From Thermodesulfobacteriota bacterium (GTDB lineage Bacteria; Desulfobacterota; DSM-4660; Desulfatiglandales; Desulfatiglandaceae): DNA of 64,000 bases. Position 1 is the first letter of the stretch, and every line of letters begins with the position of its first letter. This document shows positions 3,830 through 49,483 of the stretch, piece by piece. Under the pieces are notes generated by a model, which searched no databases, had not been told where the DNA came from, and saw only the letters and a list, made by a program, of their open reading frames with translations. Location of the stretch: the NCBI GenBank assembly GCA_028278625.1, contig JANQDY010000043.1:9766-73765 (forward strand), read 5' to 3'. A program made the position numbers and the translations under genes.

Positions 3830-5407
3830 TCAGTCTTTCGCTTTAAGGATTGCAATAGCACTATCCACATAATTTGAAGAAAGATGCTTTCCACGGGAAG
3901 ACTTTAACACTTCCGGCATGCATCTGAAAAATGCTTCCACAACTTCCGGATCGAAATGACTTCCCCGATCCGCTTTCAGAATGCCGAGGACCTTTTGAAA
4001 GGGCATTGGTTCATGTCCCATGGTTTCATTTTCCACATACTTGGGGTAATCCCTGCGGGATGTCAGCGCATCAAACACATCCGCCACGGCCAGTATTTTG
4101 GATGCCAACGGCAGTCTATCACCTTTGAGGCCGAATGGATACCCCTTGCCGTCCACCTTTTCGTGATGATAGCTGGCAATCACGGGAACACCCTTCAGTT
4201 TTTTGGAAAAATGGAACTTTTCCAGAATTGCCAGGGTCTTGGTGGTATGCTCATTCATGGCCAATCTCTCTTCAGGGGTGAAAGGACCGTTCTTGAGCAA
4301 GATATTGTCCGTTATGCCGATTTTTCCAATATCATGCAACAGACCGGCATAATGGATCTCTTTGAGTGCATCTTCATCAAGATTCATCTCGCTGGCAATG
4401 GCCAGCGCATATTCCGTTACCCGCTGCGAGTGCCCCGCCGTCAATGGGTGTTTGGCGTCAACGGTTGCCGCAAGGGTCTTGATGGCCCCTTCAAAAGAAG
4501 CTTCCAGTTCCTCAATGAGGAACGAATTCTCAAGGGCAATGGCAATGAAACCGGACAATGCCTTCAATATCTGCACATCGTTCTTGCCAAACCGCGAGGC
4601 GCCGATCTTATTCATTACCTGAATCACCGCGATCCGATCTCCCTGGCGGTTTGCAATGGGCATACAGAGGACGGACCGTGTGCGGAAATTGGAATCGCGA
4701 TCAAAGCTTCTGTCAAAATAGGACAGATCCCAGGCATCCGCCACACTGATGGTTTTTCCGGACTCAGCCACTCGGCCGCTGATTCCCTGGCCGATGGAAA
4801 GGCGAATCTCCTTAAAATGCTCCGCAACCTTGGTCCAGATTTCTTTTTTATCCCAATCGATCATGTAAAGACTGGTTCGTTCCGCCTCCATGGCCTCGGT
4901 CACTTTTTTGATAATCAGGGGAAAAAGGGCTTCAAAATCCCTCTCCTCATTGAATTCCCTGGCCATATCCAGTATCTTGGTCAGCCGATCATTCAGTGAT
5001 CGCGCTCTACTTAACAATCGGGCGTTCTTCTCCAACAACAGTCGCTCATCCAAGGCGCGATCCAGTTTGATTTTCAACTCCTCCATCTTGATGGGCTTCT
5101 TGATATAATCCGTGGCGCCGGCTTCAACCACCTGATCATAAAGGTATTCTTCTGAAAACCCGGTCACCACGATAAACGGCAGTTCCGGGGCGAATTTGCG
5201 CGCCTTGGCAATGACTTCCAGGCCGTCCATTTCGGGCATTTTGATATCGCAAATGGCGGCCTGGAAATTCCCTTCTCTGATCAATTCAAGTGCCTTGAAC
5301 CCGTTATCGGTTGCTTCGCACTGGTAACCGAGCGCTGCCAGGACATCTTTGAGAAGTTTGATGGTTGCGATGTCATCGTCCACCACGAGTATTGTCTTTT
5401 TGTCCAT
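3830..5407 (-). CDS. Response regulator with GAF and HD-GYP domains (predicted c-di-GMP phosphodiesterase)
   Basis: Order of domains: receiver (1-120, phospho-acceptor in AICDIKMPEMDG), a short coiled coil, GAF (about 150-300) and HD-GYP (about 310-505). The metal-binding HD appears as LLHDIGKIGI and the signature as HHEKVDGKGYP, so the site for hydrolysing c-di-GMP is intact. The GAF domain would bind a small ligand or sense redox state. I use the ATG at 5407 (AAGGG seven bases before); a GTG two codons upstream is possible. There is no adjacent histidine kinase, so this is an orphan regulator. Confidence 0.93.
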   Translation of the reverse strand: MDKKTILVVDDDIATIKLLKDVLAALGYQCEATDNGFKALELIREGNFQAAICDIKMPEMDGLEVIAKARKFAPELPFIVVTGFSEEYLYDQVVEAGATDYIKKPIKMEELKIKLDRALDERLLLEKNARLLSRARSLNDRLTKILDMAREFNEERDFEALFPLIIKKVTEAMEAERTSLYMIDWDKKEIWTKVAEHFKEIRLSIGQGISGRVAESGKTISVADAWDLSYFDRSFDRDSNFRTRSVLCMPIANRQGDRIAVIQVMNKIGASRFGKNDVQILKALSGFIAIALENSFLIEELEASFEGAIKTLAATVDAKHPLTAGHSQRVTEYALAIASEMNLDEDALKEIHYAGLLHDIGKIGITDNILLKNGPFTPEERLAMNEHTTKTLAILEKFHFSKKLKGVPVIASYHHEKVDGKGYPFGLKGDRLPLASKILAVADVFDALTSRRDYPKYVENETMGHEPMPFQKVLGILKADRGSHFDPEVVEAFFRCMPEVLKSSRGKHLSSNYVDSAIAILKAKD

Positions 5408-5436
5408 TTGCACACCCTTTTTTAAGGAAAAGCGAA

Positions 5437-6777
5437 TTAAATCTCTTTCAGCAACAAATTCGCTGACGCTTTTTGTGCAGCGCCATCCAGGTCATCCAAT
5501 CCATCCCTGATTTTTTTATAATCGGGATCAGTGTAGACCGGGGTATCATCCACACCCTGGTGTTCCACCTTGTCGATCACGTACTTTAATGTCAGGAGAT
5601 CCACATGTTGAGCCGGTTGATAGGCGCGGGCCGTCTCTTTATCAGGGCAGATCTCTGATACAATACCGGCTGCCTTTGTCTTCATCAGAATCCGCTCTAA
5701 AACAGTCTCAGGAAAATGGAGGGCCTTTGACATCTGCTCTAGAGTAACAGGGGGCGCCCCCTCGCAAAAACGCTTCACGAGGAAATGAACCACCCAGAGC
5801 GTCATAATCTTTTTTTGTCGGTCGCTGATGCTTGCGACATCCGACGCCAATTCATAATCTCTCTCATTTTTAAGGGAAAAGAGAAACTCCGCGCCAAACA
5901 GTACAATCAACCAACTGATCTGCAACCATATGAGAAAAAGGGGAAGCGCGGCGAAACTGCCGTAAATGGCATTGTACCGTGTCACACCGATCTGGAATGA
6001 AACGTATGCCCATTGGAACAGTTGAAACAGCGTGCCGGCCGTAATGGCGGCGGACAATCCATATTTCCAGCTGATTCTCCCATTGGGCAAGAACATATAG
6101 AGGAACGTGAAAAGGACCCAGATGGCGCAGTAGGGAAGGAGTTTCAACAGAAAAAAAATAACGGGGCTCACGGTTCCCAAAATCGTGATGGATTCAACGG
6201 CGGATGTCACTTGGCTCTTGATGACAACGGTGAGCGTACTTGACAAAATGAGCAGGAATGTACAGATCACCATTGTGGCCATATAATCGATGACTTTTCG
6301 CCCAAAGCTCCTCGATTCCGGAAAACCCATGATCTGATTAAATGCGCTTTCAACATTTCCCAAAACACGGATGACCGTCCAAAACAGAATCAGAACACCG
6401 ATCCCGGCAATCAGCCCCCCTTTGGTGGACTCGAGCATTGAATTGGCAAATACGGTCACCTTTTGAACAACCTCTTCATGGCCATAAAAACTGTCATGAA
6501 GTTGATGTTCCAATGCTTTTTCAAACCCGAATCCTTTGGCAATGCCAAAGGCCATGGCCAGAACGGGAACAATGGACAGGAGTGAATAAAATGTCAATGC
6601 GGACGCTCTGAACATGCACTGGTCTTCATTGAAAGACCTGACAGCCAGCGATATGACCCGCAACCCGCGAATGTGGAGGACCTTCCAACCCGGGAGAGTA
6701 TCAACCGGTTTTTTCCAGATACCTTCGCCAAAAAATCGGATGCCTTGAGCGATCGGGTTGTTAGGTCTATCTCTCAT
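5437..6777 (-). CDS. YihY/BrkB family inner-membrane protein with C-terminal extension
   Basis: A 446-residue membrane protein of the YihY/virulence factor BrkB family (UPF0761). About six transmembrane segments lie between residues 60 and 300, with the characteristic region ALTFYSLLSIVPVLAMAFGI. The ~140-residue C-terminal tail (EQMSKALHFPETVLERIL) resembles a winged-helix domain, a known variant in Gram-negatives. Function in the family is unsettled: an old RNase BN assignment was wrong, and a transport role has been suggested. It ends 23 bases before the HD-GYP gene. The ribosome site is weak. Confidence 0.88.
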   Translation of the reverse strand: MRDRPNNPIAQGIRFFGEGIWKKPVDTLPGWKVLHIRGLRVISLAVRSFNEDQCMFRASALTFYSLLSIVPVLAMAFGIAKGFGFEKALEHQLHDSFYGHEEVVQKVTVFANSMLESTKGGLIAGIGVLILFWTVIRVLGNVESAFNQIMGFPESRSFGRKVIDYMATMVICTFLLILSSTLTVVIKSQVTSAVESITILGTVSPVIFFLLKLLPYCAIWVLFTFLYMFLPNGRISWKYGLSAAITAGTLFQLFQWAYVSFQIGVTRYNAIYGSFAALPLFLIWLQISWLIVLFGAEFLFSLKNERDYELASDVASISDRQKKIMTLWVVHFLVKRFCEGAPPVTLEQMSKALHFPETVLERILMKTKAAGIVSEICPDKETARAYQPAQHVDLLTLKYVIDKVEHQGVDDTPVYTDPDYKKIRDGLDDLDGAAQKASANLLLKEI

Positions 6778-6849
6778 AAGAAATGCGTGAACCCGTTTAT
6801 AAAGAGCCTCTCTCCCTGTGGCAATCTCCGCAAGTTCGAAAGATGCCTC

Positions 6850-7503
6850 CTAAAACCGTTCTCCGAAAATCTTCGTACCGATTCTCACCATATTGGCACC
6901 TTCCTCAATGGCCACGTGATAGGAGTCTGACATCCCCATGGATAGAATGGACATCTCCGCATTTTCCATATTCAATGCGCCGATCTCTTCAAAGAGCGCT
7001 TTGGTCTTTTTGAAATAGGGCCTGGTTTCTTCAGGGTCATGGGTAAAAGGCCCCATGGTCATCAATCCCATCACTTTCACATGTGACAAGTGGGATATTT
7101 CCTCGATCAACCGGGGGGCGCCTTCCGGCATGATGCCGGCCTTTTGCTCCTCTTCACCGCTATTGATTTCCAGTAGAACAGGCATTGTTTTGTTGAGGTT
7201 TTTGCAGGCTTTATCAATGGCCTTGGCCAGCTTCAAGGAATCCACGGTTTCAATCATATCAAAGATCGCCGCGGCTTTTTTGGCTTTATTGGACTGGAGA
7301 TGCCCGATCATGTGCCATTTTACCGGCTGAGAAATCATTTTGAAAAGGCGTTCCGCCTCTTGAACATAATTGTGCCCGATGATTTTAAGCCCTGCCTCAA
7401 TGGCTTCAAGGACTTCCTCGGGAGTGCGGGTCTTTGCGGCCCCCACCAGCTGAACCCCTTCAGGTAACTCGGACTGAATGCGTCTCAGATTATCTTGGAT
7501 CAT
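6850..7503 (-). CDS. yggS: YggS-family pyridoxal-phosphate homeostasis protein
   Basis: A 217-residue PLP-binding TIM-barrel protein (PLPBP/YggS/PROSC family). The PLP-binding lysine is in LVGAAKTRTPEEV near residue 25; the family motifs HNYVQEAE, WHMIGHLQSNK and SMGMSDSYHVAIEEGANMVR follow in order. It has no known enzyme activity but buffers cellular PLP and affects amino-acid balance. Length matches the family (220-235). Start ATG 7503 follows GGAGGAG. It is probably transcribed with yihY, which starts about 70 bases downstream. Confidence 0.96.
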   Translation of the reverse strand: MIQDNLRRIQSELPEGVQLVGAAKTRTPEEVLEAIEAGLKIIGHNYVQEAERLFKMISQPVKWHMIGHLQSNKAKKAAAIFDMIETVDSLKLAKAIDKACKNLNKTMPVLLEINSGEEEQKAGIMPEGAPRLIEEISHLSHVKVMGLMTMGPFTHDPEETRPYFKKTKALFEEIGALNMENAEMSILSMGMSDSYHVAIEEGANMVRIGTKIFGERF

Positions 7504-7626
7504 TCTTCTCCTCCTCTTTCAATTAGAAATTGATACCCCAATTCCCATTGGGTGTAAAGAGGCATTTCATTGCTTTTTCTACTTTGACTGTGATACTTAA
7601 GGACAAAAAGAAAAGGAGGGTTGACT

Positions 7627-8061
7627 GTGACAAAACAAGATGGCGGGCATTTTGCCGAAAAGCATTCCTCAAGGAGCGAAGCCGACCCCAAGATTAAAAG
7701 CGCTTTGAAAGAGCGCGCATCCCACGGAGGGGTACCCTGTGCAATCGCCTTTGAAGTTGCGTCGGAGCTTAGTGTGGCACCGGGCCTTGTGGGTAAGACC
7801 GCGGACCTACTCGAATTTAAACTTCGAAAGTGTCAATTGGGCCTTTTCGGATATGAACCGAACAAACGGATCGTAAAACCGGCTGAAACGGTTTCCCAGG
7901 AACTGGAAGCCTCAATCGGAAATGAACTCATGAACGGACGCCTCCCCTGTGAGAAGGCATGGAAGATTGCCCATAAACTGGGGCTAGGGAAAATGGCCGT
8001 ATCCTCGGCCTGTGAAACGCTGGGAATTAAGATCAACGCCTGCCAATTGGGCGCTTTCTAA
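7627..8061 (+). CDS. Small two-repeat protein, function unknown
   Basis: A 144-residue protein from the GTG at 7627; a TTG at 7621 touches the GGAGGG ribosome site (7615-7620), so it is too close to be the start. It holds two copies of a ~55-residue unit: G-VPCAIAFEVASEL...KLRKCQLGLFGY and GRLPCEKAWKIAHKL...KINACQLGAF. Each has an invariant PC pair and ends in CQLG, so four cysteines are conserved between the units. Helices in the unit resemble an HTH. I do not recognise a named family. Metal or cofactor binding by the cysteines is a guess. Confidence 0.7.
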   Translation: MTKQDGGHFAEKHSSRSEADPKIKSALKERASHGGVPCAIAFEVASELSVAPGLVGKTADLLEFKLRKCQLGLFGYEPNKRIVKPAETVSQELEASIGNELMNGRLPCEKAWKIAHKLGLGKMAVSSACETLGIKINACQLGAF

Positions 8062-8069
8062 AGGTTTCA

Positions 8070-8133
8070 AAAAAAATCATCCTCTTCATGACACATGCTT
8101 TTTTGCCGCGTCAATCAGAGGATGATTGATTTT
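8070..8133. terminator. Bidirectional terminator-like inverted repeat between convergent genes
   Basis: Perfect 10-bp inverted repeat atcatcctct (8076-8085) and agaggatgat (8117-8126), flanked by an A run on the left and a T run on the right. It lies between the stop of the two-repeat gene (+) and the stop of the selenoprotein gene (-). The 31-base loop is long for an intrinsic terminator. Confidence 0.55.
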
Positions 8134-8145
8134 TCCGGTTCTTCG

Positions 8146-8463
8146 CTAACAGCTGCAAGAGGTGCCGCATGCCGCGGGCTGGACCGGCATATTTGACATA
8201 ATATTGAAACCTGAACCCATGGCCGTTGTCACGTAATCGACGGTGATGGGCTTGACTTTATCATACAGGGTTTCCTCTATAACGAATTTTAGACCTCGGT
8301 CATCAAATTCCTGATCGTTATCTCTTGACTCATCCAGAGCCATTCCCAAAGAGGGACCGCTTCACCCTCCCTGGGACATCATGATTCTGATTGCAGGGAT
8401 CTCATCCCTGTCCTTCAGAAAGTCCTTTATCATCTCGCTTGCTTTTTCGGTTATTTCCAGCAT
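8146..8463 (-). CDS. HesB/IscA-like selenoprotein, UGA read as selenocysteine at residue 34
   Basis: Reading from ATG 8463 (good AGGAG upstream) gives an A-type Fe-S carrier-like protein of 105 residues with a single in-frame TGA at 8364-8362. The TGA falls in the context SQGG-U-SGPSLGMAL, exactly where A-type carriers (IscA, HesB, ErpA) have the first ligand Cys in GGCSG. The reading frame continues with family sequence to a C-terminal cysteine cluster CGTSCSC (C99, C103, C105). HesB-like selenoproteins are known in this phylum. A bSECIS-like hairpin follows the UGA at the right distance. An automatic gene call would report only the last 67 residues. Role: probably Fe-S or metal delivery; not proven. 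Confidence 0.9.
8327..8364 (-). promoter_or_regulatory. Candidate bacterial SECIS element directing Sec insertion
   Basis: After the UGA (8364-8362), 20 bases lead to a 5-bp stem GGCUC (8341-8337)/GAGUC (8331-8327) with the five-base loop UGGAU. The loop starts about 25 bases after the UGA, inside the 16-37 base range for bSECIS, and has a G at its second position as expected. Pairing was done by eye and includes one G-U. Confidence 0.65.
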
Positions 8464-8566
8464 ATCTCCTCCTTTTGGCACATTTCATCTTTGCTGTTCT
8501 TTAGAATATGTACGATATCTCTTTTGTCAATATAGAATCAGAAATCCAAAAAAGGTTACAGATTTC

Positions 8567-9199
8567 TCAATAGGGTTCTTCCAGAAGGCGCTGTTTCAGC
8601 CAAACAAAAACCTTGTCCAGTTCTCCCTGCAGTTCTTTAATGGCGTTGCCGCGGTGGCTGACCCTGCTTTTCTCCGCCCGGTTCAGTTGCGCAAAGGTCT
8701 TTTCAAAAGGTGAATAGTAGAAAAGCGGGTCATAGCCGAATCCCTGGTTTCCTAAAGGCGCATCGGCAATCATCCCTTCGCAGCGTCCTTCAAAAACCAG
8801 GGCCGGTCCCATGGGCACTGCAAGGGCCAGCACGCACACGAAAGCCGCCGACCGGTCCGAGAGGCCTTTCATCTCGGTCAGGAGTTTTCGGTTGTTGCTT
8901 TCATCGTCGGCGTCCTCCCCGGCGTACCGTGAAGAAAAGACGCCCGGAGCCCCGTTGAGCGCCGTGACCACCAAGCCGGAATCATCGGCCAAGGCGGGAA
9001 GTCCCAATACCCTTGCGGTGAACCTGGCTTTCTTTACGGCATTGTCCTCTAAAGTGTCACCGTCTTCAATGACCGGGGGAATGGGTCCGAAATCATCCAG
9101 GGTTTTGATTTCAATATCCAGATGGCTGAAGAGTTCACGAAACTCCGAAATTTTGCCGCGGTTTCGGGTCGCCAGCACCAGGGGCCGGTCCAGTGTCAT
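8567..9199 (-). CDS. rdgB: XTP/dITP diphosphatase (RdgB/HAM1)
   Basis: A 210-residue non-canonical purine NTP pyrophosphatase that removes ITP, dITP and XTP from nucleotide pools. Family motifs: LATRNRGKISEFRELF at the N-terminus, ALADDSGLVVTALNGAPGV with the catalytic acidic pair, SSRYAGEDADD, the region GFGYDPLFYY and the C-terminal SHRGNAIKEL. Length is typical (about 200). Start ATG 9199 is preceded by AGGGAGA. Monocistronic as far as can be seen; the selenoprotein gene starts about 100 bases downstream on the same strand. Confidence 0.97.
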   Translation of the reverse strand: MTLDRPLVLATRNRGKISEFRELFSHLDIEIKTLDDFGPIPPVIEDGDTLEDNAVKKARFTARVLGLPALADDSGLVVTALNGAPGVFSSRYAGEDADDESNNRKLLTEMKGLSDRSAAFVCVLALAVPMGPALVFEGRCEGMIADAPLGNQGFGYDPLFYYSPFEKTFAQLNRAEKSRVSHRGNAIKELQGELDKVFVWLKQRLLEEPY

Positions 9200-9271
9200 A
9201 ATGTCTCCCTATTCTCTCTTTTGATCGATGTGTTCATATCACAAACAGGGCTTTTTGAAAACAGGCTGCAT

Positions 9272-46286: not shown

Positions 46287-47951
46287 TTAGTTTCCCGCCA
46301 TCATGGCCTGGACATCCCCGTCCACTTCGCCAGTTGGCTTTATGTCGAAGTTTTCCACCAGCACCTTCAGCACATTGGGGGAGACAAACGCCGGAAGGGT
46401 GGGCCCCAGCCGGATGCCTTTGACGCCCAGATGCAGAAGCGCCAGCAATACGGCGCAGGCTTTTTGTTCATACCAACCCACGTCAAAGGAAAGGGGCAGG
46501 TCATTGATGTGATCAAGCCCGAAAGCTTCCTTCAGTTTTAGTGCAATGAAGGCCAGGGAATAACAGTCATTGCACTGCCCCGCATCGAGAACGCGCGGGA
46601 TACCCCCAATATCACCCAAATCCAGTTTATTATAGCGGTATTTGGCGCATCCCGCCGTGAGGATGACCGTACCTTCGGGCAGTTGTTCGGCGACTTCCGT
46701 AAAATAGTTGCGCGTTTTGTGCCGCCCGTCACAGCCGGCCATGACCACGAACCGTTTAATGGCACCGCTTTTGACCGCATCGATGACCTTGTCTGCCAAT
46801 GCCAATACCTGATTGTGCGCGAAGCCCCCCACGATTTTTCCGGCTTCAATCTCCGTGGGCGAGGGCCGGGTCTTGGCAAGGGCGATGATTTCCGAAAAAT
46901 CCTTGACGCCCCCTTCGGTTCTCGCCGGAATATGCTTGGCCCCCGGATAGCCGGTAATGCCGGTGGTAAAGAGACGGTCCAGATAGGTATTCTCCTTTTT
47001 GAGGGGGATCAGACAGTTGGTGGTCAAGAGGATCGGTCCGTTAAAGGATTCAAACTCATCATTCTGACGCCACCATGAACCGCCGTAGTTCCCCACAAAG
47101 TGATCATATTTTTTGAATGCCGGGTAGAAATTGGCCGGCAGCATTTCACCATGGGTATACACATCCACACCCGTCCCCTCGGTCTGCTCCAGCAGCTCGG
47201 CCATATCTTTCAGATCGTGGCCGCTGATCAAGATGCCGGGATTTTGGCGAACACCGATATTGACCTCCGTGATTTCCGGATGACCATAGGTGGCTGTATT
47301 GGCTTCGTCCAACAGGGCCATGATGTTCACCGACATCTCTCCGCATTTGAGCACCAATGCGACCATGTCATCAACGCTCAGATCTTTTGTTGTGGAAGCC
47401 AATGCTTCCATCATGAACTGGTAAAAATCTTCATTTTCATAACCCAGCACCAGGGCATGATCCGCATAGGCGGCCACCCCTTTAAGACCGATGACAAGCA
47501 GTTCCCTCAAGGAACGCACATCTTCGTTTTCAGTTGAGAGTATTCCCACATCCTTGGCTTTGCTCTGATATGTGGATTCATCCAGTGAAGACCAGGTGGC
47601 GGCGTCCGGCAGTTCATCTGAAAATGCTTTGCCGTTCTTTTCCCGGTAAGCGGCTTCGAATCTCCCTTTGATACCATCCCGAACCCCTAACGCCTCCTTG
47701 ATTCGGGAAACAAACCACTCATCATCCCAGTTTACGTTGGTAATGGTGGAAAAAAGGCTTTCCGTCACAAATCTTGCGGTGGCATGATCCAGCACGCCCA
47801 GCGCAGCCGCTTTTTCTCCGTAAATGCCGATTCCTTTCAAAACATGGATCAACAGATCCTGCAGATTGGCGGTTTCCTCAGGTTTTCCACACATCCCCTT
47901 GATGGTGCACCCCTGGTTTTTGGCCGTTTCCTGACATTGAAAACAAAACAT
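46287..47951 (-). CDS. hcp: Hybrid cluster protein (hydroxylamine reductase-type, NO defence)
   Basis: 554 residues. Cys3, Cys6, Cys15 and Cys21 ([15 protein letters not shown], then GMCGK) form the anaerobe-type N-terminal cluster site. Ligands to the hybrid 4Fe-2S-2O cluster lie in [22 protein letters not shown] and GQCNDCYS in the expected order. Hcp reduces NO to N2O and hydroxylamine to ammonia; in anaerobes it protects against nitrosative stress. The length is canonical for class I. The promoter carries an HcpR-like box. A short partial copy lies at 41582. Confidence 0.97.
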
Positions 47952-48161: not shown

Positions 48162-48974
48162 TCAACACCCTTCATCTTCCACTATTTTGAAATCCGTAAC
48201 AGCCTTCGGCGCTTCAGGCGCCGGTTTTTCCTGAGGCACCATGGCCTTTTCATGTTTTGGCGGCAAAGGTGCCGAAACCGGTTTCCGTTCATACCGTTCA
48301 TTTGGGTAACCCACCGCGAGGATCAGTCCCAGCAAGATGAGAATTCCGGCGGCGACCCTCTTCACCTTTTTGGACCCTTTCGGCAGTTCGTCCGGGTTTC
48401 CAAATTTTTTCTCCACAAGTTCCGCCACCCAGTATGCACCCAACGCCATCAAACAGATCAGAAGGGCCACCACACCGGGACCCAGGTGAAGAAAATCCGG
48501 CAATCGAACTTCCCCCATGCTGCCGGCTTCGTAAAAACCTTGAAGCACGGGGAAAAACTCCGCAAAAATGATCGACCCCAGCATCATGCCCACAATAAAG
48601 ATGAGACCGTCCAGTTTACCTGAGACAGTGGCCACAATGGAGGTGGTCGGACAGTATCCCCCCATGACGAATCCCACGCCCAGGATCAAGCCGCCGACAA
48701 TCTGAGGCCAGATATAGGTGGGCAGGATATAGATCCGGCCGAGATCGATCCAGCCGAACATGGAAAAATAGAGAAGCCCCAGAGCACACACCACAATGGC
48801 GGTAAACATCACCTTCAGAACCGCAAAATCTCTGAGATAGAAAATTGCCGTCAGTTTCCGGGCATCACCGAATCCCGCCCTTTCAAGGACAAAACCGAAG
48901 AAAAATCCTACCAGACCCGCAATTTGAAGACTGTAGGAAAAATCGAACCAACCGAATTTATAGAGCGGACCCAT
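48162..48974 (-). CDS. YeeE/YedE-type transporter, second half
   Basis: 270 residues from ATG 48974 (GGAG nine bases before). About six transmembrane helices; the Cys motif GGYCPTTSIVATVSG marks this as the second half of a YeeE/YedE (TsuA-like) thiosulfate/sulfur channel, which in other species is one protein. A C-terminal tail rich in Lys/Pro ends with EDEGC. It is coupled to the first-half gene (TAATG overlap). Thiosulfate or sulfide-related uptake is expected by family. Confidence 0.88.
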   Translation of the reverse strand: MGPLYKFGWFDFSYSLQIAGLVGFFFGFVLERAGFGDARKLTAIFYLRDFAVLKVMFTAIVVCALGLLYFSMFGWIDLGRIYILPTYIWPQIVGGLILGVGFVMGGYCPTTSIVATVSGKLDGLIFIVGMMLGSIIFAEFFPVLQGFYEAGSMGEVRLPDFLHLGPGVVALLICLMALGAYWVAELVEKKFGNPDELPKGSKKVKRVAAGILILLGLILAVGYPNERYERKPVSAPLPPKHEKAMVPQEKPAPEAPKAVTDFKIVEDEGC

Positions 48975-49483
48975 TATAACCACTCCTTTCTGAAGAAGTA
49001 GGCGGTTGCATAGGCACCCCCGAAAATACAGAACATGAACACCCAGGACCCAAAGGCCAGTTCAGAGGCGCCTGTAAGGGCCTGTCCACTGGTACATCCT
49101 CTTGCCAGGCGGGCTGCGAATCCGGAAAGAACGCCGCCGAACAAGGCAAGCCAAAGCCTGGCGGATGCGCCGATGGCCGGCCCTCGAACCACCTCTCCCT
49201 TGATGCGGCCCGAAATAAAAGCCGAAAAAAGGGCACCCATACCGGCACCCAGGCTTAGAAAGACCAGCCACGCCATGAGAGGGGAACGCCCCCCTCCGAA
49301 ATACTTGGCAAAATAGGGGTTGGCTTCCGTGTGCTCAGGCGCCACAAGTCCCAATACAAAAGTCCCTATCCTTGCAAAACTGGCAGAGGAACCGACGCCC
49401 CTGCCCATAGTATAGAAGGAAAAAAGCAGGACCAGTCCCAGGAAAACACCGATCACATAAGGGTTCGCGTACCGTTTATTCAT
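48974..49483 (-). CDS. YeeE/YedE-type transporter, first half
   Basis: 169 residues, four to five transmembrane helices, Cys motif ARGCTSGQALTGASELA. Forms the partner of the downstream half, the arrangement seen in many Proteobacteria. GGAAGAG before ATG 49483. Sits in the stress cluster, between the HEAT protein and hcp, which suggests sulfur import coupled to redox repair. Confidence 0.88.
   Translation of the reverse strand: MNKRYANPYVIGVFLGLVLLFSFYTMGRGVGSSASFARIGTFVLGLVAPEHTEANPYFAKYFGGGRSPLMAWLVFLSLGAGMGALFSAFISGRIKGEVVRGPAIGASARLWLALFGGVLSGFAARLARGCTSGQALTGASELAFGSWVFMFCIFGGAYATAYFFRKEWL

Follow-up and report, generated by a model that had tools for sequence, protein, structure and literature searches.

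HesB-like selenoproteins and the gene in the window

The closest described proteins are the HesB-like selenoproteins. An extract from a 2005 study of the Sargasso Sea lists HesB-like among the known families that it did not detect (PMC1088965), and an extract from a 2006 study counts 11 HesB-like members, including some from Syntrophobacter, Syntrophus, Desulfovibrio and Geobacter (PMC1794560). In its available sections a 2026 review gives HesB-like proteins the motif UxGP and the model TIGR01911 (PMC13188914). In Methanococcus maripaludis, mutagenesis together with 75Se labelling revealed a HesB-like selenoprotein, whose function is called unclear in the accessible text of that paper (PMC11097638). 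Our literature search returned no papers on selenocysteine (Sec) with Fe-S assembly in Desulfobacterota, and found none that names the model NF038090. For the A-type Fe-S carriers IscA, SufA and ErpA, we take the defining motif to be the first ligand cysteine together with a C-terminal CGC, as displayed by the IscA-like chain 1nwb.

The window, by which we mean the whole 64,000-nucleotide stretch of DNA analysed here, carries a frame of 105 residues that ends in TAG and is interrupted by a single in-frame UGA at codon 34. An earlier note, which named no strand, had proposed a HesB/IscA-like gene with an in-frame UGA at this place; the gene is indeed there, on the minus strand (Table 1). With TGA translated as U, the product reads MLEITEKAS...MSQGG-U-SGPSLGMALDESR...PAACGTSCSC-stop, and a purine-rich, AGGAGG-like site lies 5' of the ATG.

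Table 1. Features of the selenoprotein gene, in window coordinates.
Feature	Position	Strand	Evidence
HesB/IscA-like selenoprotein gene, predicted Sec at residue 34	8146..8463	-	translation; NF038090 125.4 bits (cut-off 85); PF01521 32.8 (cut-off 26.3)
In-frame UGA, predicted Sec codon 34, motif U-S-G-P	8362..8364	-	frame; UGA in 54/63 matches
Putative bSECIS hairpin UGGCUC-UGGAU-GAGUCA, loop 8332-8336	8326..8342	-	folding; pairs in 55 UGA copies; codons 42-45 of 11 genes
Cys-rich C-terminal tail C99-x3-C103-x-C105	8149..8169	-	translation; 35-sequence alignment

The product covers the entire profile of NF038090 (IscA_HesB_Se, NCBIfam; positions 1-101 of 101), exceeds the cut-off of PF01521 (Pfam) and just passes TIGR00049 (63 against a cut-off of 58.8). 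Among solved chains the top sequence match is the IscA-like 1nwb (E 2e-12), in which the cysteine of GGCSGF aligns with the UGA; a second solved chain, 1r94 (yfhF), which we take to be E. coli IscA, gives an E value of 4e-6. Alignment with these solved IscA-like chains supports the proposal that the UGA falls at the first cysteine site of the IscA fold.

The flanks of the gene are common to near relatives, with DNA identities of about 77% over 5438-9212 (locus L001) and 74% over 3836-9211 (L002), and both conserved stretches span the selenoprotein gene, rdgB (8567-9199) and yggS (6850-7503). Adjoining the selenoprotein gene in the opposite orientation, positions 7621-8061 of the plus strand encode a conserved 146-residue protein that has 2863 relatives but matches neither Pfam nor NCBIfam models at E 0.001. 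Elsewhere in the window a YeeE/YedE-like sulphur transport protein (PF04143) is encoded on the minus strand (48162-48983), near a hydroxylamine reductase gene (46287-47951). This gene was considered as a selenium transporter and set aside, its resemblance to the selenium-linked YedE being weak and under the cut-offs.

The UGA codon in relatives and the Sec machinery

In a first scan, 16 loci were found on genome contigs. UGA was found at the codon in 11 of the 11 loci (L001-L011) labelled Deltaproteobacteria, Desulfobacterales, Desulfobacteraceae or Thermodesulfobacteriota; the other five, with 38-41% identity and the label Armatimonadetes or Armatimonadota, all have Cys. A wider search covered 85 genomes from the order to which G001 belongs; it included the genomes of L001-L011 and is therefore not independent of the first scan. 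It yielded matches in 56 genomes and none in 29, and all 63 matches were read. UGA was present in 54 of these, from 54 of the 56 matching genomes, with one UGA copy per genome; 53 copies align directly with TGA, and one (L096) was added by hand after a one-codon shift in the alignment. The remaining nine matches all have Cys, encoded by TGC in five and TGT in four. They comprise a Cys orthologue with TGC at the Sec codon (L044, 75% identity), two Cys paralogues in genomes that also have a UGA copy (L090 and L094), and six more distant sequences.

The existence of Cys orthologues, such as L044, could speak for a sequencing error, or for a gene with Cys here that has taken a nonsense mutation or decayed into a pseudogene. 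Such an origin is contradicted by the presence of the same UGA in 54 genomes, by the intact remainder of the frame and by the constraint on the hairpin described below. As the UGA recurs in independently sequenced relatives, we rejected this explanation and give it almost no weight.

The database records of the family need some care in reading. The protein search found 136 relatives, of which 120 were listed. Among these 120 matches the residue at the Sec site is W in 59, C in 37 and V in one, and the other 23 are short proteins of 65-66 residues without the Sec site; the three of these whose sequences were read start at the Met after the UGA. The 59 tryptophans could be read as a sign that UGA encodes Trp through a variant genetic code. 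We take them instead for the product of automatic translation under another code. TGA terminates 10 of the 21 window frames taken as genes (the selenoprotein frame counted among the 21), the relatives have selA, selB and mostly tRNA-Sec, and none of the nine non-UGA matches has Trp. Since TGA stops about half of the window frames checked and the non-UGA matches are Cys, translation as Trp was rejected and is highly improbable. For their part, some of the database cysteines may stand for Sec; one protein with C at the site (P0112) carries the source name HesB-like selenoprotein. A tree of 93 Sec and Cys proteins needs eight label changes, at least five of them on well-supported branches; it is built from a small number of columns, and its 36 database proteins are labelled Cys from their protein records and not from DNA.

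Genes for Sec insertion were sought in the 11 genomes behind L001-L011 (completeness not given) and in 14 control genomes. Matches over the cut-off were obtained for selA in all 11 genomes (partial in G011), selB in 10 (all but G007), tRNA-Sec in nine (all but G006 and G008) and selD in seven (all but G005, G006, G007 and G011), and in the control genomes for tRNA-Sec in five, selB in two, selA in one and selD in two. The cut-off for tRNA-Sec is the least specific, because five of the 14 controls pass it; the nine top tRNA-Sec matches come from nine different genomes and reach 70.7 to 73.6 bits, the next one 52.4. Of nine further genomes, eight have selA over the cut-off (fragmentary in G064) and all nine have selB. 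G063, the genome of a Cys copy, is among those with the machinery and has therefore kept the Sec trait. In all seven genomes where selD passes the cut-off (G001-G004 and G008-G010), selD has one in-frame TGA. Scans of the 64-kb window found no tRNA and no match to an Rfam family. We infer that the organism of the window has sel genes and inserts Sec.

A conserved hairpin downstream of the UGA

The earlier note had also described a 5-bp hairpin with the loop UGGAU 20 nt 3' of the UGA. This hairpin was confirmed, and has 6 bp when the closing U-A pair is counted. The distance from the UGA is 19 nt to the stem with its closing pair, 20 nt to the 5-bp core and 25 nt to the loop. The published bSECIS model, as given in the accessible part of its source, has a loop of 3-9 nt, a stem of 4-16 bp, a G in loop bases 1-2, 16-37 nt from UGA to loop and a folding energy of -7.5 kcal/mol or below. 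In geometry the hairpin lies within these ranges, with a 5-nt loop, a 6-bp stem, the loop sequence UGGAU and 25 nt to the loop. Folded alone, its 17 nt give -6.5 kcal/mol, weaker than the model's value (z -3.7, equalled by one of 200 shuffles), and a 51-nt stretch that includes a second hairpin gives -13 kcal/mol, with a z of only -0.5 (equalled by 56 of 200 shuffles). Within the window, both strands taken together, a loose 5-bp stem with G in loop bases 1-2 follows 572 of the 2505 TGA triplets, and for this reason a hairpin in a single sequence is no proof of a SECIS element. Across the whole window no other UGA-recoded gene with the same hairpin pattern after a TGA was found besides 8463..8146.

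Conservation is more informative. All 55 UGA copies (the window included) have standard base pairs at the four innermost positions; the fifth pair is standard in 52 of them, and 46 have a standard sixth pair. The third pair is U-A for C-G in L077, with both sides changed, and the fourth is G-U in 20 copies and G-C in 35; G occupies loop position 2 in each of the 54 copies that were scored position by position. Of the nine non-UGA copies, compared at the same offset at which distant ones may be gap-shifted, none keeps all four inner pairs, and one (L101) retains the 5' half GGCTCTGGA. A chance hairpin was rejected, the stem being kept in relatives despite the background of 572 in 2505. The window gene and L001-L010, 11 genes in all, have a synonymous difference rate of 48% over 92 codons, yet none of 210 comparisons within codons 42-45 shows such a difference, and this is the signature of an RNA element within the coding sequence.

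Conservation across relatives, together with the Sec machinery of their genomes, strongly supports the earlier proposal of a selenoprotein with a bSECIS element. Judged from sequence comparison, the probability is about 0.96 that the product is a HesB-like selenoprotein belonging to the NF038090 subfamily; SelB would bind the hairpin just 3' of UGA 34 and deliver Sec-tRNA to that codon, and Sec34 would occupy the first Fe-S ligand Cys position of the IscA fold. Weighing against this reading are the folding energy of the hairpin taken alone, the TIGR01911 score under its cut-off, the parts of the Sec machinery that some relatives' genomes do not show over the cut-off, and the lack of any tRNA or Rfam match in the window.

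Possible function and relation to known systems

The C-terminal tail differs from that of the carriers. When the query was aligned with 34 proteins selected from the 120 listed, 35 sequences in all, C99 and C103 did not vary. Of the 53 UGA relatives whose tail can be read, none has a C-terminal CGC; this count leaves out L080, which is cut off by a contig end, and L095 was judged by eye. Near the window gene, one clade holds 14 Cys orthologues (from among L044 and P0002-P0016), 12 of which have a CC tail, as in CCSSCSC. These 12 have an extra Cys where Sec is absent, the UGA kin of the window gene having CG. Two proteins inside the clade (P0014 and P0015) and three outside it (P0010, P0012 and P0017) keep CG, and the CC tail of the clade may reflect a single event.

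It had further been suggested that the organism might use Sec in an A-type carrier, a role that the sequence does not establish: the product is far under the equivalog cut-offs of the NCBIfam models for IscA, SufA and ErpA, has Sec at the first site and lacks a C-terminal CGC. We therefore regard the product as a Sec-containing protein of the IscA fold that may take part in Fe-S or metal handling. Sec34 and the C-terminal cysteines might jointly bind or transfer Fe, S or Fe-S, or do redox work, a step we put forward with less assurance than Sec insertion itself. The scores below the carrier cut-offs and the absence of CGC from all 53 readable tails also suit a Sec protein whose redox or selenium- or metal-handling role has nothing to do with Fe-S carriage and whose IscA fold is ancestry only, as does a disruption mutant of the M. 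maripaludis HesB-like gene with unimpaired nitrogen fixation (an unpublished observation quoted in the available text of PMC11097638). Against such a role stand the matches to PF01521 and to solved IscA-like chains, Sec at the Cys position and the cysteines in the tail; we regard it as a serious possibility that falls somewhat short of an even chance. A tentative idea, which we think rather unlikely, is that in this subfamily Sec34 and the Cys-rich tail together hold an Fe-S cluster, iron or selenium at a mixed selenolate/thiolate site, making the protein a carrier with a selenium ligand.

For the preferred reading, a HesB-like selenoprotein with Sec34, the comparative evidence indicates that an IscA-like gene of a lineage akin to Desulfobacterales uses Sec at a Cys ligand site. 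Databases store such genes shortened after the UGA or with Trp in its place, and the Sec/Cys pairs found here are material for testing the biochemical role of the HesB-like family.

The window gene is a new member of a long-known family of HesB-like selenoproteins; the family itself is not new. Its match to NF038090 extends over the whole profile and no difference from that subfamily was seen, the selenoprotein sense of the model being taken from its name. With the HesB-like family of the literature (UxGP, TIGR01911) it shares the U-S-G-P motif, an IscA-like sequence and deltaproteobacterial members, and its GG-U-SGP agrees with the UxGP tabulated in the available part of the 2026 review. It is, however, under the TIGR01911 cut-off (41.2 against 66.35 bits), and whereas that profile has 92 positions, the window protein extends into the Cys-rich tail. 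With the A-type carriers IscA, SufA and ErpA it has PF01521 and the aligned Cys site in common, but compared with 1nwb it has Sec for Cys, USGP for CSGF and CxxxCxC for CGC.
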